From: a virus
Length of the DNA: 20,337 nucleotides
IMG/VR virus record: IMGVR_UViG_3300012931_000084
Coordinates: 1-20,337 of that record
Reading direction: 5' to 3' (one strand)
Below are positions 2,128-16,034 of the stretch, in pieces. The notes under the pieces were generated by a model. That model was not told the DNA's origin. It did not search any database and was given only the letters and a program-made list of their open reading frames with translations. Each line of letters begins with the position of its first letter. Position 1 is the stretch's first letter. Both the position numbers and the translations under genes were made by a program.

Positions 2128-3036
2128 ATGAAACGGATTTTAAGGGTATTCCCGAAAAGAACTTCATACACGCCGGACGACGATATGGTCTACATCGGAA
2201 TGCCGGATATGCTCGTTCCAGATCATGATGAAGTACATATTTCTTGCATTTTCACATGGGACAGGCCATATTGCAGGGAACTTCAATTCCAGTGGCAAGG
2301 CATAACAGATAAGCCGGTTTTGCTGGGTGGTCCGGCGTTTAATTCTCCGGTAAAAGGATTCCAGCAAGGCATGTATGTCAAGAGCAACGTAATTTTTACA
2401 TCGAGAGGATGTAACAACCATTGCGGATTCTGCGGAGTACCAAAACTTGAAGGACCGATTCAGGAATTGCCGATCTACACCGGAAACATCATTCAGGATA
2501 ACAACTTCCTGCAATACAGCCGGGAGCATAAGGATAAAGTCTTTGAAATGTTGAAAACCCAAAAGGGGATCTGCTTTAAAGGCGGTCTGCAAACTTCATT
2601 GATTGACGATCATTTCACAGAAAATATCAGGGCGCTCACCTATAAGCGAGGCAAGAAAGAACATAGCAGAATATCGGAAATATGGCTTGCGTGTGACAGC
2701 GATAATGCAATTGAACCGCTTAGAAAAGCCGTTAAGAAGCTGAATGAAGCCGGATTCGATCAAAGCAAAATTTACTGCTATGCCCTGATCGGTGGAGAGA
2801 ATGCAACCCCTGAGACTATGGAAAAGAATGAAGCTAGATTACAGGAAATATTCCGGATCGGAGCCATGCCGAGAGCGCAGCTATATCAGAATTTCAATGA
2901 TGAAAAAATCCCATACAGTAAGGATTGGACGAGGTTTGAGAAGCAATGGCAGCGGCCGGCAGCAACAAAGGATCATTGTTTAAAAGGTACAAATTTCAAT
3001 GACTTTTATAAAAAAGTAATTCTAACTAAGATTTGA
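2128..3036 (+). CDS. Radical SAM enzyme of unknown substrate
   Basis: This 302-residue protein carries the canonical radical SAM cluster motif CNNHCGFC (Cys95, Cys99, Cys102), whose three cysteines bind a 4Fe-4S cluster used to split S-adenosylmethionine into a radical. It is preceded by NVIFTSRG and followed by VPKLEGPIQELP and NIIQDNNFL, blocks seen in radical SAM proteins with a B12-binding-like N-terminus. The N-terminal part (1-90) includes LLGGP at 65-69, like the Gly-Gly-Pro loop of such domains, but I see no clear cobalamin His motif, so it is probably degenerate. The C-terminal half has IYCYALIGGENATPETMEKNEARLQ, a typical late strand-helix of the barrel. The start at 2128 follows AAGGAGAG. 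The substrate cannot be read from sequence. It is too long for, and unlike, QueE. Confidence 0.85.
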   Translation: MKRILRVFPKRTSYTPDDDMVYIGMPDMLVPDHDEVHISCIFTWDRPYCRELQFQWQGITDKPVLLGGPAFNSPVKGFQQGMYVKSNVIFTSRGCNNHCGFCGVPKLEGPIQELPIYTGNIIQDNNFLQYSREHKDKVFEMLKTQKGICFKGGLQTSLIDDHFTENIRALTYKRGKKEHSRISEIWLACDSDNAIEPLRKAVKKLNEAGFDQSKIYCYALIGGENATPETMEKNEARLQEIFRIGAMPRAQLYQNFNDEKIPYSKDWTRFEKQWQRPAATKDHCLKGTNFNDFYKKVILTKI

Positions 3037-3050
3037 AAGGAGCAGATCAG

Positions 3051-3815
3051 ATGGAGTTGACACACTTAAGTTTATTTACCGGGATCGGCGGCCTTGATCT
3101 GGCTGCTGAATGGGCCGGCTTTCGGACGGTGGGGCAATGTGAATGGGCAGACTATCCAACGAAGGTTTTAGAAAAGCATTGGCCCGACGTTGTTCGGTGG
3201 AGAGACATCAGAACACTCACAAAGGAGAGTTTTTATGAGCGAACAGGATTACATACAGTTGACATTATTTCTGGGGGATTCCCTTGCCAGCCCTTTAGTC
3301 AAGCCGGGCGGCGAAAAGGCGAGGATGATGACCGTTACCTCTGGCCGGAAATGCTTAGAGTTATTTCAGAGATCAGACCGATTTGGATTATTGGTGAAAA
3401 TGTTCCTGGAATCCTCACTATGGGGATCGAGATATGCCTTTCACAGTTGGAACATATTGGGTATTCGGGGGGGGTATTACAGATTCCAGCTTGTGCCGTG
3501 GGGGCAAAATTCCGAGGCGATCGAATCTTCATTGTTGCCTCGTCCAATAGCGAGCGACGGGGAAGCATGGATAAAAGTATCGGCCTCAGCCCCTCAAAAG
3601 AGTATATCGAAATGCTTGATTCGTGGGGCACAAGACAGGACAACCTACCGTTGGATATGGCAGGGTTTTTCGCCGATCCAAGCAGCAGAGTTAAACGAAA
3701 CGATAATGGGATTACCGAAGGGGTACACCGACTTAAAGCTATAGGTAATATGGTTGTACCGCAGCAAGCATACCCAATTTTTAAAGCAATAGCTGAGATA
3801 GAACTCGGCAGTTAG
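3051..3815 (+). CDS. DNA (cytosine-5) methyltransferase
   Basis: This is a C5-cytosine methyltransferase, transferring a methyl group from S-adenosylmethionine to cytosine in DNA. Motif I is LFTGIGGLDLA near the N-terminus. Motif IV is GGFPCQPFSQAG with catalytic Cys79. Motif VI is GENVPG with Glu116. Motif VIII is FRGDRIFIVAS, and motif X is AIGNMVVPQQAYPIF near the end. At 254 residues it is short; restriction-system enzymes usually have 320-400, the difference lying in the target-recognition region after motif VIII. The ATG at 3051 follows GAAAGGAG; an upstream TTG at 3033 overlaps that site. No restriction nuclease is adjacent, so it is an orphan that probably protects phage DNA from host restriction or marks it. 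Confidence 0.93.
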   Translation: MELTHLSLFTGIGGLDLAAEWAGFRTVGQCEWADYPTKVLEKHWPDVVRWRDIRTLTKESFYERTGLHTVDIISGGFPCQPFSQAGRRKGEDDDRYLWPEMLRVISEIRPIWIIGENVPGILTMGIEICLSQLEHIGYSGGVLQIPACAVGAKFRGDRIFIVASSNSERRGSMDKSIGLSPSKEYIEMLDSWGTRQDNLPLDMAGFFADPSSRVKRNDNGITEGVHRLKAIGNMVVPQQAYPIFKAIAEIELGS

Positions 3816-3828
3816 TTGGAGGTAAGTT

Positions 3829-4002
3829 ATGAAAGTCATTGAAATATACAGACGATTAAAAGTTAAGAAAGCAGTAAGAGACTTTGAGCCTATAAGGAGT
3901 CCCGCAATACTGTATAAATGCCCTGTTTGCAGTAGCGATCTTCCCGTATGGATGGTTGGGTTGAAATATTGCTATCGCTGCGGTCAGCGAGTGGAATTTT
4001 AA
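3829..4002 (+). CDS. Small zinc-ribbon protein
   Basis: This 57-residue ORF starts at an ATG behind GGAGGTAAGTT. It has a basic helical N-terminus (RRLKVKKAVRDFE) and two Cys pairs, CPVC at about 34-37 and CYRCG at about 50-54, spaced as in a zinc ribbon. Such proteins bind nucleic acid or protein partners; no specific function is evident. It lies 13 bases after the methyltransferase stop and 29 before the HNH gene, in the same operon-like run. Confidence 0.72.
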   Translation: MKVIEIYRRLKVKKAVRDFEPIRSPAILYKCPVCSSDLPVWMVGLKYCYRCGQRVEF

Positions 4003-4930: not shown

Positions 4931-5122
4931 ATGAAGTGTAGTGAATGCGAACACGCGAAGAAATACACGAATCATAGAGTCGCAGGAATCGGGGCGTCAA
5001 GCGGGAGACCGCCATTTTGTGAGGATGCTTACATGTGCGAGCATCCTCAAAGCAAGGGGCATTTAAGCAGCTTATGTTTTACGGGAAAAACATGTCCAAG
5101 AACTTGCCCGCTGAAAAAATAA
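4931..5122 (+). CDS. Hypothetical small Cys-rich protein
   Basis: This is a 63-residue protein starting at ATG 4931 behind TAAGGAGGTAAACCGAA, a full ribosome binding site. It has eight cysteines, starting CSECEHAKK, with a middle CEDAYMCEHP and a terminal CPRTCP. The pattern of paired cysteines and a His suggests one or two small zinc sites. It has the same general plan as the next gene, which starts IVPKCKECENY and ends with a lone WCP, so the two may be distant paralogues. Function is unknown. Confidence 0.65.
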   Translation: MKCSECEHAKKYTNHRVAGIGASSGRPPFCEDAYMCEHPQSKGHLSSLCFTGKTCPRTCPLKK

Positions 5123-5152
5123 TGAATAACAGTTTTCTATTAGGAGGGTAAA

Positions 5153-12124: not shown

Positions 12125-14179
12125 ATGTTTGGGAAAAAAGACAAAACCGAAAAAGACAATAAGCAGCAGTGCACTCCCGAAGAAAGTAAACTGCTCTACC
12201 TCGTAACCACAAATCAGCAAACAGCCGAGAGTGCCAGAGGGACAAGTTATACCGACTACGATTCGCTCGAATCTGCCGGGGTTGAAACAATATGGGAAGA
12301 CGAATACAAAATGCTCATCGGCGATCAGTGGAGCACGTCGTTTGCCTATAGGACAAGAGCATCCCGTAAAACCCGGCCAAATTCAGTAGACAATTTTATA
12401 TTCCCGGCGATCATGAACGCCAAAGACAACATCTGCGTGAGCACTCCCGAAGTTGTGATAGAGCCAACGGAAGACGGCGACGAAGAACTGGCCGAGAAAC
12501 TTACATATCTTTCGCAATACAATGACGGGATCCACCGGAACAACTTCAAATCGACTTGGAAAAAGATGGTTCAGCAGTTTATCGCATATGGACCGATCAT
12601 CGGAGCCGTGCTATGGGATAACGACTGGATGGGCGGCAGAGGGCCCAACAGATGGATAGGCGACGTCCGGATACTTCACATAGACCGCAGGGATATTTTT
12701 TTCGACCCCGCTATTATCGACCTCGAAGACCGCATGCAGGAGTGTTCTTTCGTCAACAGGAGATTTCGAAAGAAACTCTCGTACATCATGGACAAATGGG
12801 AAAACGGCAAGTACGTCTCCGAGGAAAACAACGAAAATGACCTTCAGGACGAAGGGGGTGACCCGAAACAAGCCTACTTGATCGAGGGATGGCACAGAGG
12901 GCTCCCGGCATTCGTCCCGCCAGAGAAGAAAAAGAAGTTCCTTGAAAAAGCACAGGAGTATTTACCGCCGAGCGCGAACCCTGATCCTTATAAGGCCCAG
13001 GACTACAAAGACATGGCAGAGGGTAAATTAAAGGGCATACACTGCGCCTACGTTGCAAATAATGTGTTTTTGGATTACGAACCATACGTTTATGACGACG
13101 GGCTGTATCCGTTCGTTTATAAGACTTGCTACTACGACGAAAACTCTCCTTACGGATTTGGAGAAATCAGGAATATAAAAATCCCTCAGGTAATGCACAA
13201 CAAAGCTGACGAGATCGAAATCGAAGCTATGTCAAGGCAAGGGCTCGGCGGTCAGTATTACACCAAGGGATCCGTAACCCCAAAGCAGAAAGTTGAGATC
13301 CTCAAAAACAACGGCAAAGGCGGGGAATGGCTTGAAGTAGATAACATTCACGGACTAAAGGAACGGGAGGGCGTTGAGACCCCCGAGTCGCTGATTATTT
13401 ATAAGAACAAAAAGCAGGAGATCATCGAGACCGTTTCTTCCAATACCCCGATTCAGCAAGGACTTTCTCCGGGAGCGAACGTACCATATTCCACAATCCA
13501 GGAACTTGGAGCAAGAACAGACGTAAGGACAAAAGCAAAGGTTGAAATACTCGAAGATTTCCTGATCGATATCAACAAACTCAGAATCAACCGATTTGCG
13601 CAATTCTACACCGAAGACAGGTATTACAGATTAAAGGGGCAGGACGGAAATGCAATCTCAGGAACGTTCAGCAATTCAGAAATGTTCAAGCCCTGGGATC
13701 GTGAAAAGACTGAAACCGAGACCAAGGTTGAGAACTTTGTCCCCGAATTTGACATAAACGTCAAGATCATGGACGAGAAGCCGACCGACAGAAACTACTA
13801 CGTAAACACTGCATTGACAATGTTCAAGGGTAAAGGAATGACTCTGGCAGACTTGTGGTACACGATCGAAGAAGGTAAGTTCCCGAACAAGGACGATATC
13901 TTGGAGCACGTCGAAAACCAAGACGAGGCCGTCATGCTTACTGAGGCGCTGAACAAGATGCAACCCGAACAAAAACAGCAGATAATTCAAATGATTCAGC
14001 AGGCAGTTCAACAACAGTCGCAAAACGACGTAGACGCTTTCCTTGATTCTCTGCCTGACGAACAGCTAGCGCAATTACAGCAACTACCGGCAGAACAGCG
14101 CGACGCTGCGATTAAACAAATGATGGGAGGTGCGCAGAATGCCCAAGGAAATGGAACGCAAACTCAAAGCGGAGGCTAA
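12125..14179 (+). CDS. Portal protein
   Basis: This 684-residue protein would form the dodecameric ring at one capsid vertex through which DNA enters and leaves. The N-terminal region (40-110) has EDEYKMLIGDQWS and RPNSVDNFIFPAIMNAKDNI; the middle has FIAYGPIIGAVLWDND, RDIFFDPAIIDLEDRMQECSFV and PFVYKTCYYDENSPYGFGEI, as in P22-like long portals. The wing and clip part is followed by a Gln-rich C-terminus (about 610-684; QQAVQQQSQNDVDAF and PDEQLAQLQQLPAEQRDA), probably a flexible or coiled tail. ATG 12125 follows AAGGAGGAGCACC. A 42-residue ORF overlaps its end in another frame. Confidence 0.9.
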   Translation: MFGKKDKTEKDNKQQCTPEESKLLYLVTTNQQTAESARGTSYTDYDSLESAGVETIWEDEYKMLIGDQWSTSFAYRTRASRKTRPNSVDNFIFPAIMNAKDNICVSTPEVVIEPTEDGDEELAEKLTYLSQYNDGIHRNNFKSTWKKMVQQFIAYGPIIGAVLWDNDWMGGRGPNRWIGDVRILHIDRRDIFFDPAIIDLEDRMQECSFVNRRFRKKLSYIMDKWENGKYVSEENNENDLQDEGGDPKQAYLIEGWHRGLPAFVPPEKKKKFLEKAQEYLPPSANPDPYKAQDYKDMAEGKLKGIHCAYVANNVFLDYEPYVYDDGLYPFVYKTCYYDENSPYGFGEIRNIKIPQVMHNKADEIEIEAMSRQGLGGQYYTKGSVTPKQKVEILKNNGKGGEWLEVDNIHGLKEREGVETPESLIIYKNKKQEIIETVSSNTPIQQGLSPGANVPYSTIQELGARTDVRTKAKVEILEDFLIDINKLRINRFAQFYTEDRYYRLKGQDGNAISGTFSNSEMFKPWDREKTETETKVENFVPEFDINVKIMDEKPTDRNYYVNTALTMFKGKGMTLADLWYTIEEGKFPNKDDILEHVENQDEAVMLTEALNKMQPEQKQQIIQMIQQAVQQQSQNDVDAFLDSLPDEQLAQLQQLPAEQRDAAIKQMMGGAQNAQGNGTQTQSGG

Positions 14180-14267
14180 GAAAAAAGGCCTGACCGGAGA
14201 AGCCGCAGACAGATACGTCTACGGTACGATGGTCAAGGCTGGTTGGAAGCCAAAGAAAAAGAAATAA
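14139..14267 (+). CDS. Small basic phage protein overlapping the portal end
   Basis: This 42-residue protein starts at ATG 14139 behind GGGAGGTGCGCAGA, inside the portal gene in a different frame, and runs 88 bases beyond the portal stop. It reads MPKEMERKLKAEAKKKGL, then TGEAADRYVYGTMVKAGWKPKKKK. The helical basic start and the GTMVKAGWKP end are a pattern I associate with short conserved proteins next to phage portals. The strong ribosome binding site supports real translation. Function is unknown; a virion or packaging accessory is likely. Confidence 0.7.
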   Translation: MPKEMERKLKAEAKKKGLTGEAADRYVYGTMVKAGWKPKKKK

Positions 14268-14298
14268 GGCGCTTACACAACGTGGTCGCTTTTATATT

Positions 14299-14312
14299 TT
14301 AGAGAGCAGATA
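14299..14312 (+). repeat. 14-bp inverted repeat, left copy
   Basis: TTAGAGAGCAGATA here is the exact reverse complement of 14776-14789. The pair brackets one gene (14338-14769). This copy lies in the leader of that gene, about 25 bases before its start codon and just after a weak hairpin with a T-rich tail (14267-14299). Confidence 0.75.
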
Positions 14313-14337
14313 GAAAGTAAGAAAAGGAGAAAGAAAG

Positions 14338-14769
14338 GTGATAGCTAAATATTTGAATGGAGAAACATGGGGTTATATTGACAACATAAGGCAAGCTGCA
14401 AGCGTGGGACTTGATATCCGGCAAACAGTTACGAATTACGACGAAGAGAGAAACTTTAAGGAAAAAGAGGCAAGGGAAAAGGGGTGGCCCGTTGAGTTTG
14501 ATATTTGTTGCTATGCCGACGGAGAGGAATTTCCCGACGAGGTTAAAATCTCGAACAAGGTATTCTTAAAGGCCACAGAAGGGCAATCGCAATGGGGGCA
14601 TGAAGTACATTGTGAAAACCTTATTGACGGAAGAAAGTGGGAATATCCCGGATCAATTATTTTGCTTTACGTTGAAGGCCATAAAGAGTACGACACGATT
14701 GCATTAATAACCAACCAGAAAGTATTCCTGATGAACGACAAAGGCCAAACCATAGAAAGATTAGTTTAA
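14338..14769 (+). CDS. Hypothetical protein bracketed by inverted repeats
   Basis: This 143-residue protein is not recognised. It starts at GTG 14338 with AAAAGGAG about ten bases upstream. It has an N-terminal strand-helix part (YLNGETWGYIDNIRQAASVGL), a charged helix (YDEERNFKEKEAREKGW), a beta-rich middle (VEFDICCYADGEEFPDEVKI) and a C-terminal sheet (YPGSIILLYVEGHKEY, TIALITNQKVFLMNDKG). It interrupts the usual portal-scaffold order and carries its own terminator. Both facts, and the repeats, suggest a later insertion (moron) rather than a virion component. Confidence 0.72.
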   Translation: MIAKYLNGETWGYIDNIRQAASVGLDIRQTVTNYDEERNFKEKEAREKGWPVEFDICCYADGEEFPDEVKISNKVFLKATEGQSQWGHEVHCENLIDGRKWEYPGSIILLYVEGHKEYDTIALITNQKVFLMNDKGQTIERLV

Positions 14770-14798
14770 AGTGATTATCTGCTCTCTAATCACTTTTT
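14768..14798 (+). terminator. Terminator whose loop is the right inverted-repeat copy
   Basis: AAAGTGATT at 14768-14776 pairs with AATCACTTT at 14788-14796, followed by TT. The 11-base loop ATCTGCTCTCT is wholly complementary to the leader of the same gene (14301-14311). The stop codon of the gene overlaps the first stem bases. Confidence 0.7.
14776..14789 (-). repeat. 14-bp inverted repeat, right copy
   Basis: TATCTGCTCTCTAA is the reverse complement of 14299-14312. It fills the loop and the loop-proximal stem bases of the terminator. I see no target-site duplication outside the pair. Confidence 0.75.
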
Positions 14799-14812
14799 AA
14801 GGAGGCGACATA

Positions 14813-14848
14813 ATGGCAAAGAAGAAGGGCTGCAAAGGCGGCAAATAA
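14813..14848 (+). CDS. Micro-ORF, 11 residues (MAKKKGCKGGK)
   Basis: An ATG at 14813 behind AAGGAGGCGACATA, a full ribosome binding site, opens an 11-residue basic peptide with one Cys. Its TAA stop runs directly into the ribosome binding site of the next gene (AAGGAGGG). It could be a real tiny virion or regulatory peptide, or a translational-coupling device for the gene at 14860. Confidence 0.4.
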   Translation: MAKKKGCKGGK

Positions 14849-14859
14849 GGAGGGTTTCA

Positions 14860-15111
14860 GTGAAAGCGATAGACAGGCTGTTAAAGCTTGATGGCGAAAA
14901 ACTTGAAATATTTAAAATTCTAGACGGAAGCGTTACGGCAATTCAATATGCAGATTGCAACGTTGAAGACGGTTCCTGCATTGTCGGAACGTTTGGACGC
15001 GGTGCGACAGTAGATGAAGCGGCAGAAGATTACTGCAATAAAATATCTGGGAAAACGCTTGTGTTTAGGTTTTATAAAACCACTCAAAAAGAAGTTACAG
15101 TTTTATTTTAA
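14860..15111 (+). CDS. Conserved small phage protein of unknown function
   Basis: This is an 83-residue protein starting at GTG 14860 behind AAGGAGGGTTTCA. It reads VKAIDRLLKLDGEKLEIFKI, then short strands and a helix with TVDEAAEDYCNKISGK, and ends with LVFRFYKTTQKEVTVLF. An alpha/beta fold is likely. The helix motif VDEAAEDYC resembles small early or accessory phage proteins I have seen, but no role is known. It is closed off by terminator-like hairpins before the scaffold gene. Confidence 0.68.
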   Translation: MKAIDRLLKLDGEKLEIFKILDGSVTAIQYADCNVEDGSCIVGTFGRGATVDEAAEDYCNKISGKTLVFRFYKTTQKEVTVLF

Positions 15112-15118
15112 CATATCC

Positions 15119-15192
15119 GGGGGCGGTTTGTATTCCCTCGCATTCCGCCCCGTTTCAAAAGTTTGAAAGCGCTCAATACGGGTGCTTTTTAT
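15119..15192 (+). terminator. Tandem terminator-like hairpins before the scaffold gene
   Basis: GGGGCGG at 15120-15126 pairs with CCGCCCC at 15145-15151, a strong stem without a long U run. Next, AAAGCGC at 15166-15172 pairs with GTGCTTT at 15182-15188, followed by TTTAT, a conventional terminator. Together they separate the small-gene block from the capsid genes. Confidence 0.6.
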
Positions 15193-15251
15193 AATGGGCC
15201 GCAAAACGGCATCGTCCGAACCTCGCCCACAAACGAAAAGGAGAAATACAC

Positions 15252-16034
15252 ATGTTCGAAACAGAACAGGCTGCTAATGCCGCAGTAGCGGACGGACTCG
15301 CCACCCAAGAAGTAACGGAAACCACTGAACAGGTTGAAAATAAATCCGAAACAACGGAGCAAATCACCCAAGAAGAGCAGAAGGAAGACGTTACAAAAAC
15401 AAAGGCTTTCAGCGAAAGACTGAACGTTATGACGCAAAAGGCCAAAGCGGAAGAAAGAGACGCCGTAATCGAAGAAATGTACGGCTCACAGGGCATACAT
15501 ACCTATGCAGAGTATCAAGAAGCCGTCCAAAAACAGCAGGAACAGGAAAGGCAAAACAAACTCATAGAAAACGGAATTGACCCCGAAATTTTAAAAGAGG
15601 CTATTGCTTCCGACCCCGACGTACAGTGGGCCAAGACATTCAGACAAAAGCAGGAAGTTGAAAATTTCAGAAGTCAGGTTAAGGAAGAAAAGGCATCGTT
15701 AAAAGACGAGCCTTATTTTATTGACCTTGAGGCTGAGATTGACACATTGGTCGAGTCGAGTTTGCAAAACGGAAAGTTTGTAGACGTAGGTACTGCCTAT
15801 AGGTTCCTCGTAGGGCAAAACATCAAAGACCTTATCAGTAAATCAAAAGGGCAGACGGAAAAGCAAACCCTCGCCAACGTGCAAGACAGAGCAAACAGAG
15901 GATTAACCGGCGGCAGTGACACCACCAAGGGCGCCGTTGATTATTCCGACGTTGACTTTGGAATGGCAAATGTGTTCGGAAACGATCCAAAGAAAATAGC
16001 CGAACGCATAACAAAAGAAAAAAAGAAAGGATGA
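15252..16034 (+). CDS. Capsid scaffolding protein
   Basis: This 260-residue protein would shape the prohead during assembly and leave it before or during packaging. It is acidic, Glu/Gln/Thr-rich and helical, with long coiled-coil-prone runs (TEQVENKSETTEQITQEEQ, then YQEAVQKQQEQERQNKLIE). The middle has PEILKEAIASDPDVQWAKTFRQKQEVENF, and the C-terminus is basic (PKKIAERITKEKKKG), as expected for the coat-binding end. ATG 15252 follows AAAAGGAGAAATACAC. The order portal, scaffold, coat supports the call. Homology at sequence level is weak, as is usual for scaffolds. Confidence 0.82.
   Translation: MFETEQAANAAVADGLATQEVTETTEQVENKSETTEQITQEEQKEDVTKTKAFSERLNVMTQKAKAEERDAVIEEMYGSQGIHTYAEYQEAVQKQQEQERQNKLIENGIDPEILKEAIASDPDVQWAKTFRQKQEVENFRSQVKEEKASLKDEPYFIDLEAEIDTLVESSLQNGKFVDVGTAYRFLVGQNIKDLISKSKGQTEKQTLANVQDRANRGLTGGSDTTKGAVDYSDVDFGMANVFGNDPKKIAERITKEKKKG

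Follow-up and report, generated by a model that had tools for sequence, protein, structure and literature searches.

ORF143, a small gene that a phage with a P22-like portal carries between its portal gene and its putative scaffold gene, is rather likely to be a single-gene, moron-like insert with its own Shine-Dalgarno sequence and a weak 3′ hairpin, and the exact 14-bp inverted repeat that encloses it is, on this reading, coincidental and not a trace left by a mobile element. The gene would have been gained as single-gene cargo, would be translated from its own Shine-Dalgarno sequence and would rely for termination on a weak hairpin and the short T-run behind it, while the repeat would be a chance complementarity between the ORF143 leader and the hairpin loop region. 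The window referred to throughout is the whole stretch of DNA analysed, one IMG/VR record of 20337 bases that is possibly a fragment.

Gene order and the portal-scaffold interval

The window encodes, in order, a small terminase (Terminase_2 in Pfam), a large terminase (identified by PHROG), a P22-like portal protein, the interval under study, a putative scaffold protein, a head protein and a major head protein, the last recognized by a PHROG match and, weakly, by a Pfam match to gpT. Relatives of the portal were found in two metagenome-assembled genome (MAG) contigs labelled Syntrophomonadaceae and Clostridia, which suggests a host among the Bacillota. The interval and its borders comprise the following features:

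12125..14179, + strand, P22-like portal protein gene, bordering the slot upstream (Pfam P22_portal 3e-21, PHROG portal 1.6e-43)
14130..14267, + strand, Lys-rich small ORF of 45 aa that overlaps the portal end, without family match
14266..14292, + strand, hairpin AAGGCG...CGCTTT followed by TATATTTT, fold -7.3 kcal/mol, likely the terminator of the portal unit
14338..14769, + strand, ORF143, proposed cargo gene, 143 aa, GTG start
14860..15111, + strand, ORF83, second gene of the slot
15166..15188, + strand, second terminator-like hairpin, fold -11.5 kcal/mol, closing the slot
15252..16034, + strand, putative scaffold gene, bordering the slot downstream, its role assigned from its position between portal and head genes and from homologues in the same place in relatives

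A variable slot in related phages

The interval was compared across about 30 relatives with recognizable portal and scaffold or head genes, loci on the same or identical contigs having been left out. Its length among these non-duplicate relatives ranges from 77 to 1739 bp. In several of them (for example L002, L058, which is L003's contig, L020, L021 and L073) it holds no ORF of at least 30 aa, and in others it carries one to several small genes of varied kinds, none of which, in the roughly 30 relatives, resembles ORF143 or ORF83. The slots of several relatives hold small Lys-rich ORFs, comparable to the one at 14130..14267 in the window. Small slot ORFs resembling HExxH metalloproteases, read from the translations, occur in L007 (1592-1909), L010 (3812-4177) and L014 (4536-4934).

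Base composition points the same way. The GC content at third codon positions (GC3) is 0.44 in ORF143, against 0.57 in the portal, 0.55 in the major capsid and 0.62 in the large terminase genes, and that of ORF83, at 0.32, is the lowest of the genes compared; the contrast is only modest for ORF143, because the scaffold gene itself stands at 0.47. Since slot content varies among relatives and both slot genes have lower GC3, the view of ORF143 as moron-like cargo occupying a variable slot is supported. The suggestion of an inserted moron made in an earlier note on this DNA thus holds for the gene, whose slot is differently filled or empty in relatives and whose GC3 is lowered, and is not supported where it took the repeat to be the end of the insert. 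The slot is useful for annotation, and new proteins found there are candidates for accessory functions.

ORF143 and ORF83

The GTG start of ORF143 at 14338 is preceded by AAGGAG, and a scan for sigma-70-like promoters listed no site upstream of the gene. The protein has no homologue by tblastn against phages and plasmids or in scans of IMG/VR and GTDB contigs, and comparisons with Pfam, PHROGs, NCBIfam, PADLOC and the PDB returned no family or solved structure above chance level; an anti-CRISPR chain was set aside, its E value of 0.33 being that expected by chance. Structure prediction without an alignment gave an unusable model (pLDDT 42), and a literature search returned nothing on point. 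ORF83 likewise has no homologue in the relatives. A likeness by eye between ORF83 and a slot ORF of L014 was rejected, BLASTP giving no match.

The inverted repeat and the hairpin behind ORF143

The features at the two ends of ORF143 are as follows:

14299..14312, + strand, upstream copy of the inverted repeat, in the ORF143 leader
14776..14789, - strand, downstream repeat copy, lying in the hairpin loop and upper arms
14768..14796, + strand, weak hairpin where ORF143 ends, with 10 bp of which 2 are G-C, arms 14768-14777 and 14787-14796, loop 14778-14786
14813..14848, + strand, candidate 11-aa ORF MAKKKGCKGGK, read from the sequence, with Shine-Dalgarno AAGGAGG at 14799-14805

Both 14-mers are exact, as the earlier note had described, and neither recurs elsewhere in the window with up to two mismatches; the same note's statement that they closely bracket one gene is likewise borne out, the single ORF between the copies being that at 14338-14769. 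Its description of the downstream copy as filling a terminator loop is right as to the overlap with a hairpin and inexact as to the extent, for besides the 9-nt loop the copy takes in part of each arm, 2 nt on the 5′ side and 3 nt on the 3′ side. Were all 14 nt to pair with the leader, the top of the hairpin would therefore open.

The hairpin itself is present, but poor as a terminator. It folds at -7.4 kcal/mol, was absent from the listing of the terminator scan, and in transcripts lacking the leader copy has a mean pair probability of 0.04-0.19. Only two of its ten pairs are G-C, and the full stem is followed by two T (five if the last three A-U pairs are left out of the stem) and directly thereafter by the Shine-Dalgarno sequence AAGGAGG, for which reasons it would terminate weakly, if at all. 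The strong Shine-Dalgarno sequence right behind this weak hairpin is that of the 11-aa ORF; a 22-aa Cys/Lys-rich ORF in the slot of the relative L015 may be compared with this small frame.

How far chance accounts for the repeat

Under a first-order Markov model, an inverted repeat of at least 14 bp within 500 nt is expected in 2% of 20-kb windows; under a second-order model, 0.05 are expected per window at spacings of 100-1000 (at least one in 4% of windows), and two are observed. The second, of equal length, lies at 2993-3006 / 3832-3845, each of its arms falling within a coding region. Across 152 kb from relatives, one such repeat was found at spacings of 100-700, a 17-bp pair in L006. The claim that a chance 14-bp match would be very unlikely therefore stands for the portal-scaffold interval alone (about 0.1% over its 1072 bp) and not for the window as a whole, where the probability is 2-4% and a second pair is present. 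The repeat pair, which was chosen after looking, is unusual for its place and not extraordinary across many scanned windows, and it is probably coincidental. Against coincidence stand the low probability of the event within the slot (roughly 0.1%), the location of both arms outside coding sequence, something a chance origin would not call for, and the strength of the duplex considered below.

Two side observations concern the other repeats: the pair at 2993-3006 / 3832-3845 surrounds a C5-cytosine methylase ORF, and that of L006 (3355-3371 / 3500-3516) lies just upstream of a second copy of the head protein gene.

Possible long-range pairing in the mRNA

An alternative that we consider unlikely is that the repeat acts as RNA, the ORF143 leader at 14299-14312 pairing with the 3′ end at 14776-14789 in a helix extended by GGTCGCTTTT with AAGGAGGCGAC, the latter including the next Shine-Dalgarno sequence. 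Such pairing would open the hairpin, with read-through or loss of 3′ protection, mask the next start and couple the two ends of the gene. Folding at equilibrium, which treats the RNA as naked, gives the helix a mean pair probability of 0.96-0.97 in both isolated and longer transcripts and includes it in the minimum free energy fold of 14260-14815. The duplex reaches -32.1 kcal/mol, and none of 472 other window stretches binds the 3′ end as strongly, although this superiority follows largely from the 14-nt match itself. Equilibrium folding, moreover, leaves out translation and the co-transcriptional formation of the hairpin, and the folding energy of the whole mRNA is not unusual (z -0.79). Covariation is impossible to assess, as no ORF143 homologue was found. 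The relatives' slots hold neither such a leader pairing nor a comparable repeat, the longest inverted repeat in the 25 slots of at least 200 bp being 11 bp. The idea that the loop pairs with the leader and links the 5′ and 3′ ends, which the earlier note had raised, is accordingly favoured in silico (about 0.97) and finds no counterpart in the relatives. That one RNA helix, joining the leader of a cargo gene to its 3′ hairpin loop and to the next ribosome-binding site, controls both gene ends and the next start is decidedly improbable. The repeat would be of importance in itself only once RNA pairing had been demonstrated.

Possible insertion of a larger or smaller unit

It is rather improbable that the insert is the whole of about 14266-15190, brought in between two similar hairpins through recombination at terminator-like sequences, with the 14-bp repeat incidental; such an insert would hold ORF143, the 11-aa ORF and ORF83. 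The two hairpin regions do align (AAGGCGCTTACACAACGTGGTCGC-TTTTATA / AAAGCGCTCAATACGGGTGCTTTTTATA), with a score equalled in 1.5% of random 41-mer pairs, and ORF143 and ORF83 both lie below the portal, capsid and terminase genes in GC3; terminator-like hairpins, however, are alike anyway, and the search turned up no close relative whose site is empty.

Most improbable is that the 14-bp repeat forms the ends of an inserted 491-bp mobile unit, as the earlier note had also proposed, for although it closely brackets one gene of lower GC3 inside a variable slot, it has no target-site duplication of 2-11 bp, no other copy of the pair at a spacing of 448-478 in IMG/VR, no match to the 14-mer with up to one mismatch across the 0.95 Mb of loci that were fetched and nothing comparable in the slots of relatives, ORF143 shows no transposase or other recognized family, and the second slot gene, ORF83, falls outside the repeat.

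A conserved element before the scaffold gene

The stretch that directly precedes this gene holds a further feature:

15196..15250, + strand, conserved noncoding element, starting GGGCYGCAAAACGGCNNCGNCCGAACCTCGCC

Its core of about 45 nt at 15196-15240 (GGGCCGCAAAACGGCATCGTCCGAACCTCGCCCACAAACGAAAAG) is near-identical in six other phage records (MT836592 and the IMG/VR loci L025, L026, L027, L029 and L034), in all of which the element shortly precedes a scaffold-like gene. The portals of the loci that share it have no detectable similarity to that of the window (L013 reaching only E 0.93). In the reading frame free of stops in both the window and L029, the variable positions of the core (NNC GNC) are codon positions 1 and 2 and the third is fixed, which in the alignment speaks against a coding explanation of the conservation. 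One covarying pair, GC to CG, occurs in the near-identical L029 and L034 and is broken in two other loci, so that a folded structure is at most possible. No Rfam family matched 15196-15250, and a search with a model of the scaffold leader gave one partial hit, of 19 bits, in 98 bacterial genomes and none in 398 bacterial genomes. The element could serve the head operon as a regulatory RNA or as a binding site for a protein. In P22, the scaffold protein is autoregulated, and by analogy the element may possibly serve autoregulation by the scaffold protein. It may be a better target for further work than the repeat. Another pre-scaffold leader, GCCCA...GGGCCGYGATACCTCTTRCGTTATAGAGGCAAAA...CCAAGGAG, is shared by L007 (about 1925-2005) and L014 (about 5070-5140).

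Comparison with known systems

Three kinds of known system bear on the arrangement around ORF143. MITE-like mini-elements are bounded by inverted repeats, and the ORF143 unit resembles them in having a short inverted repeat around a small segment; unlike them, it has no target duplication, second copy or transposase, and it carries a full gene. Intramolecular pairing between 5′ and 3′ untranslated regions (UTRs) occurs in bacterial mRNAs, and the ORF143 leader is likewise complementary to its own gene's 3′ end, the pairing here being a prediction from sequence and folding. Morons, or cargo genes between morphogenesis genes, are familiar from lambdoid phages. ORF143 departs from them in that no sigma-70-like promoter site was found near it, its hairpin is weak and no homologue was found, and it agrees with them in lying between two head genes, in being absent or replaced in relatives, in its shifted composition and in the hairpin at its 3′ end.
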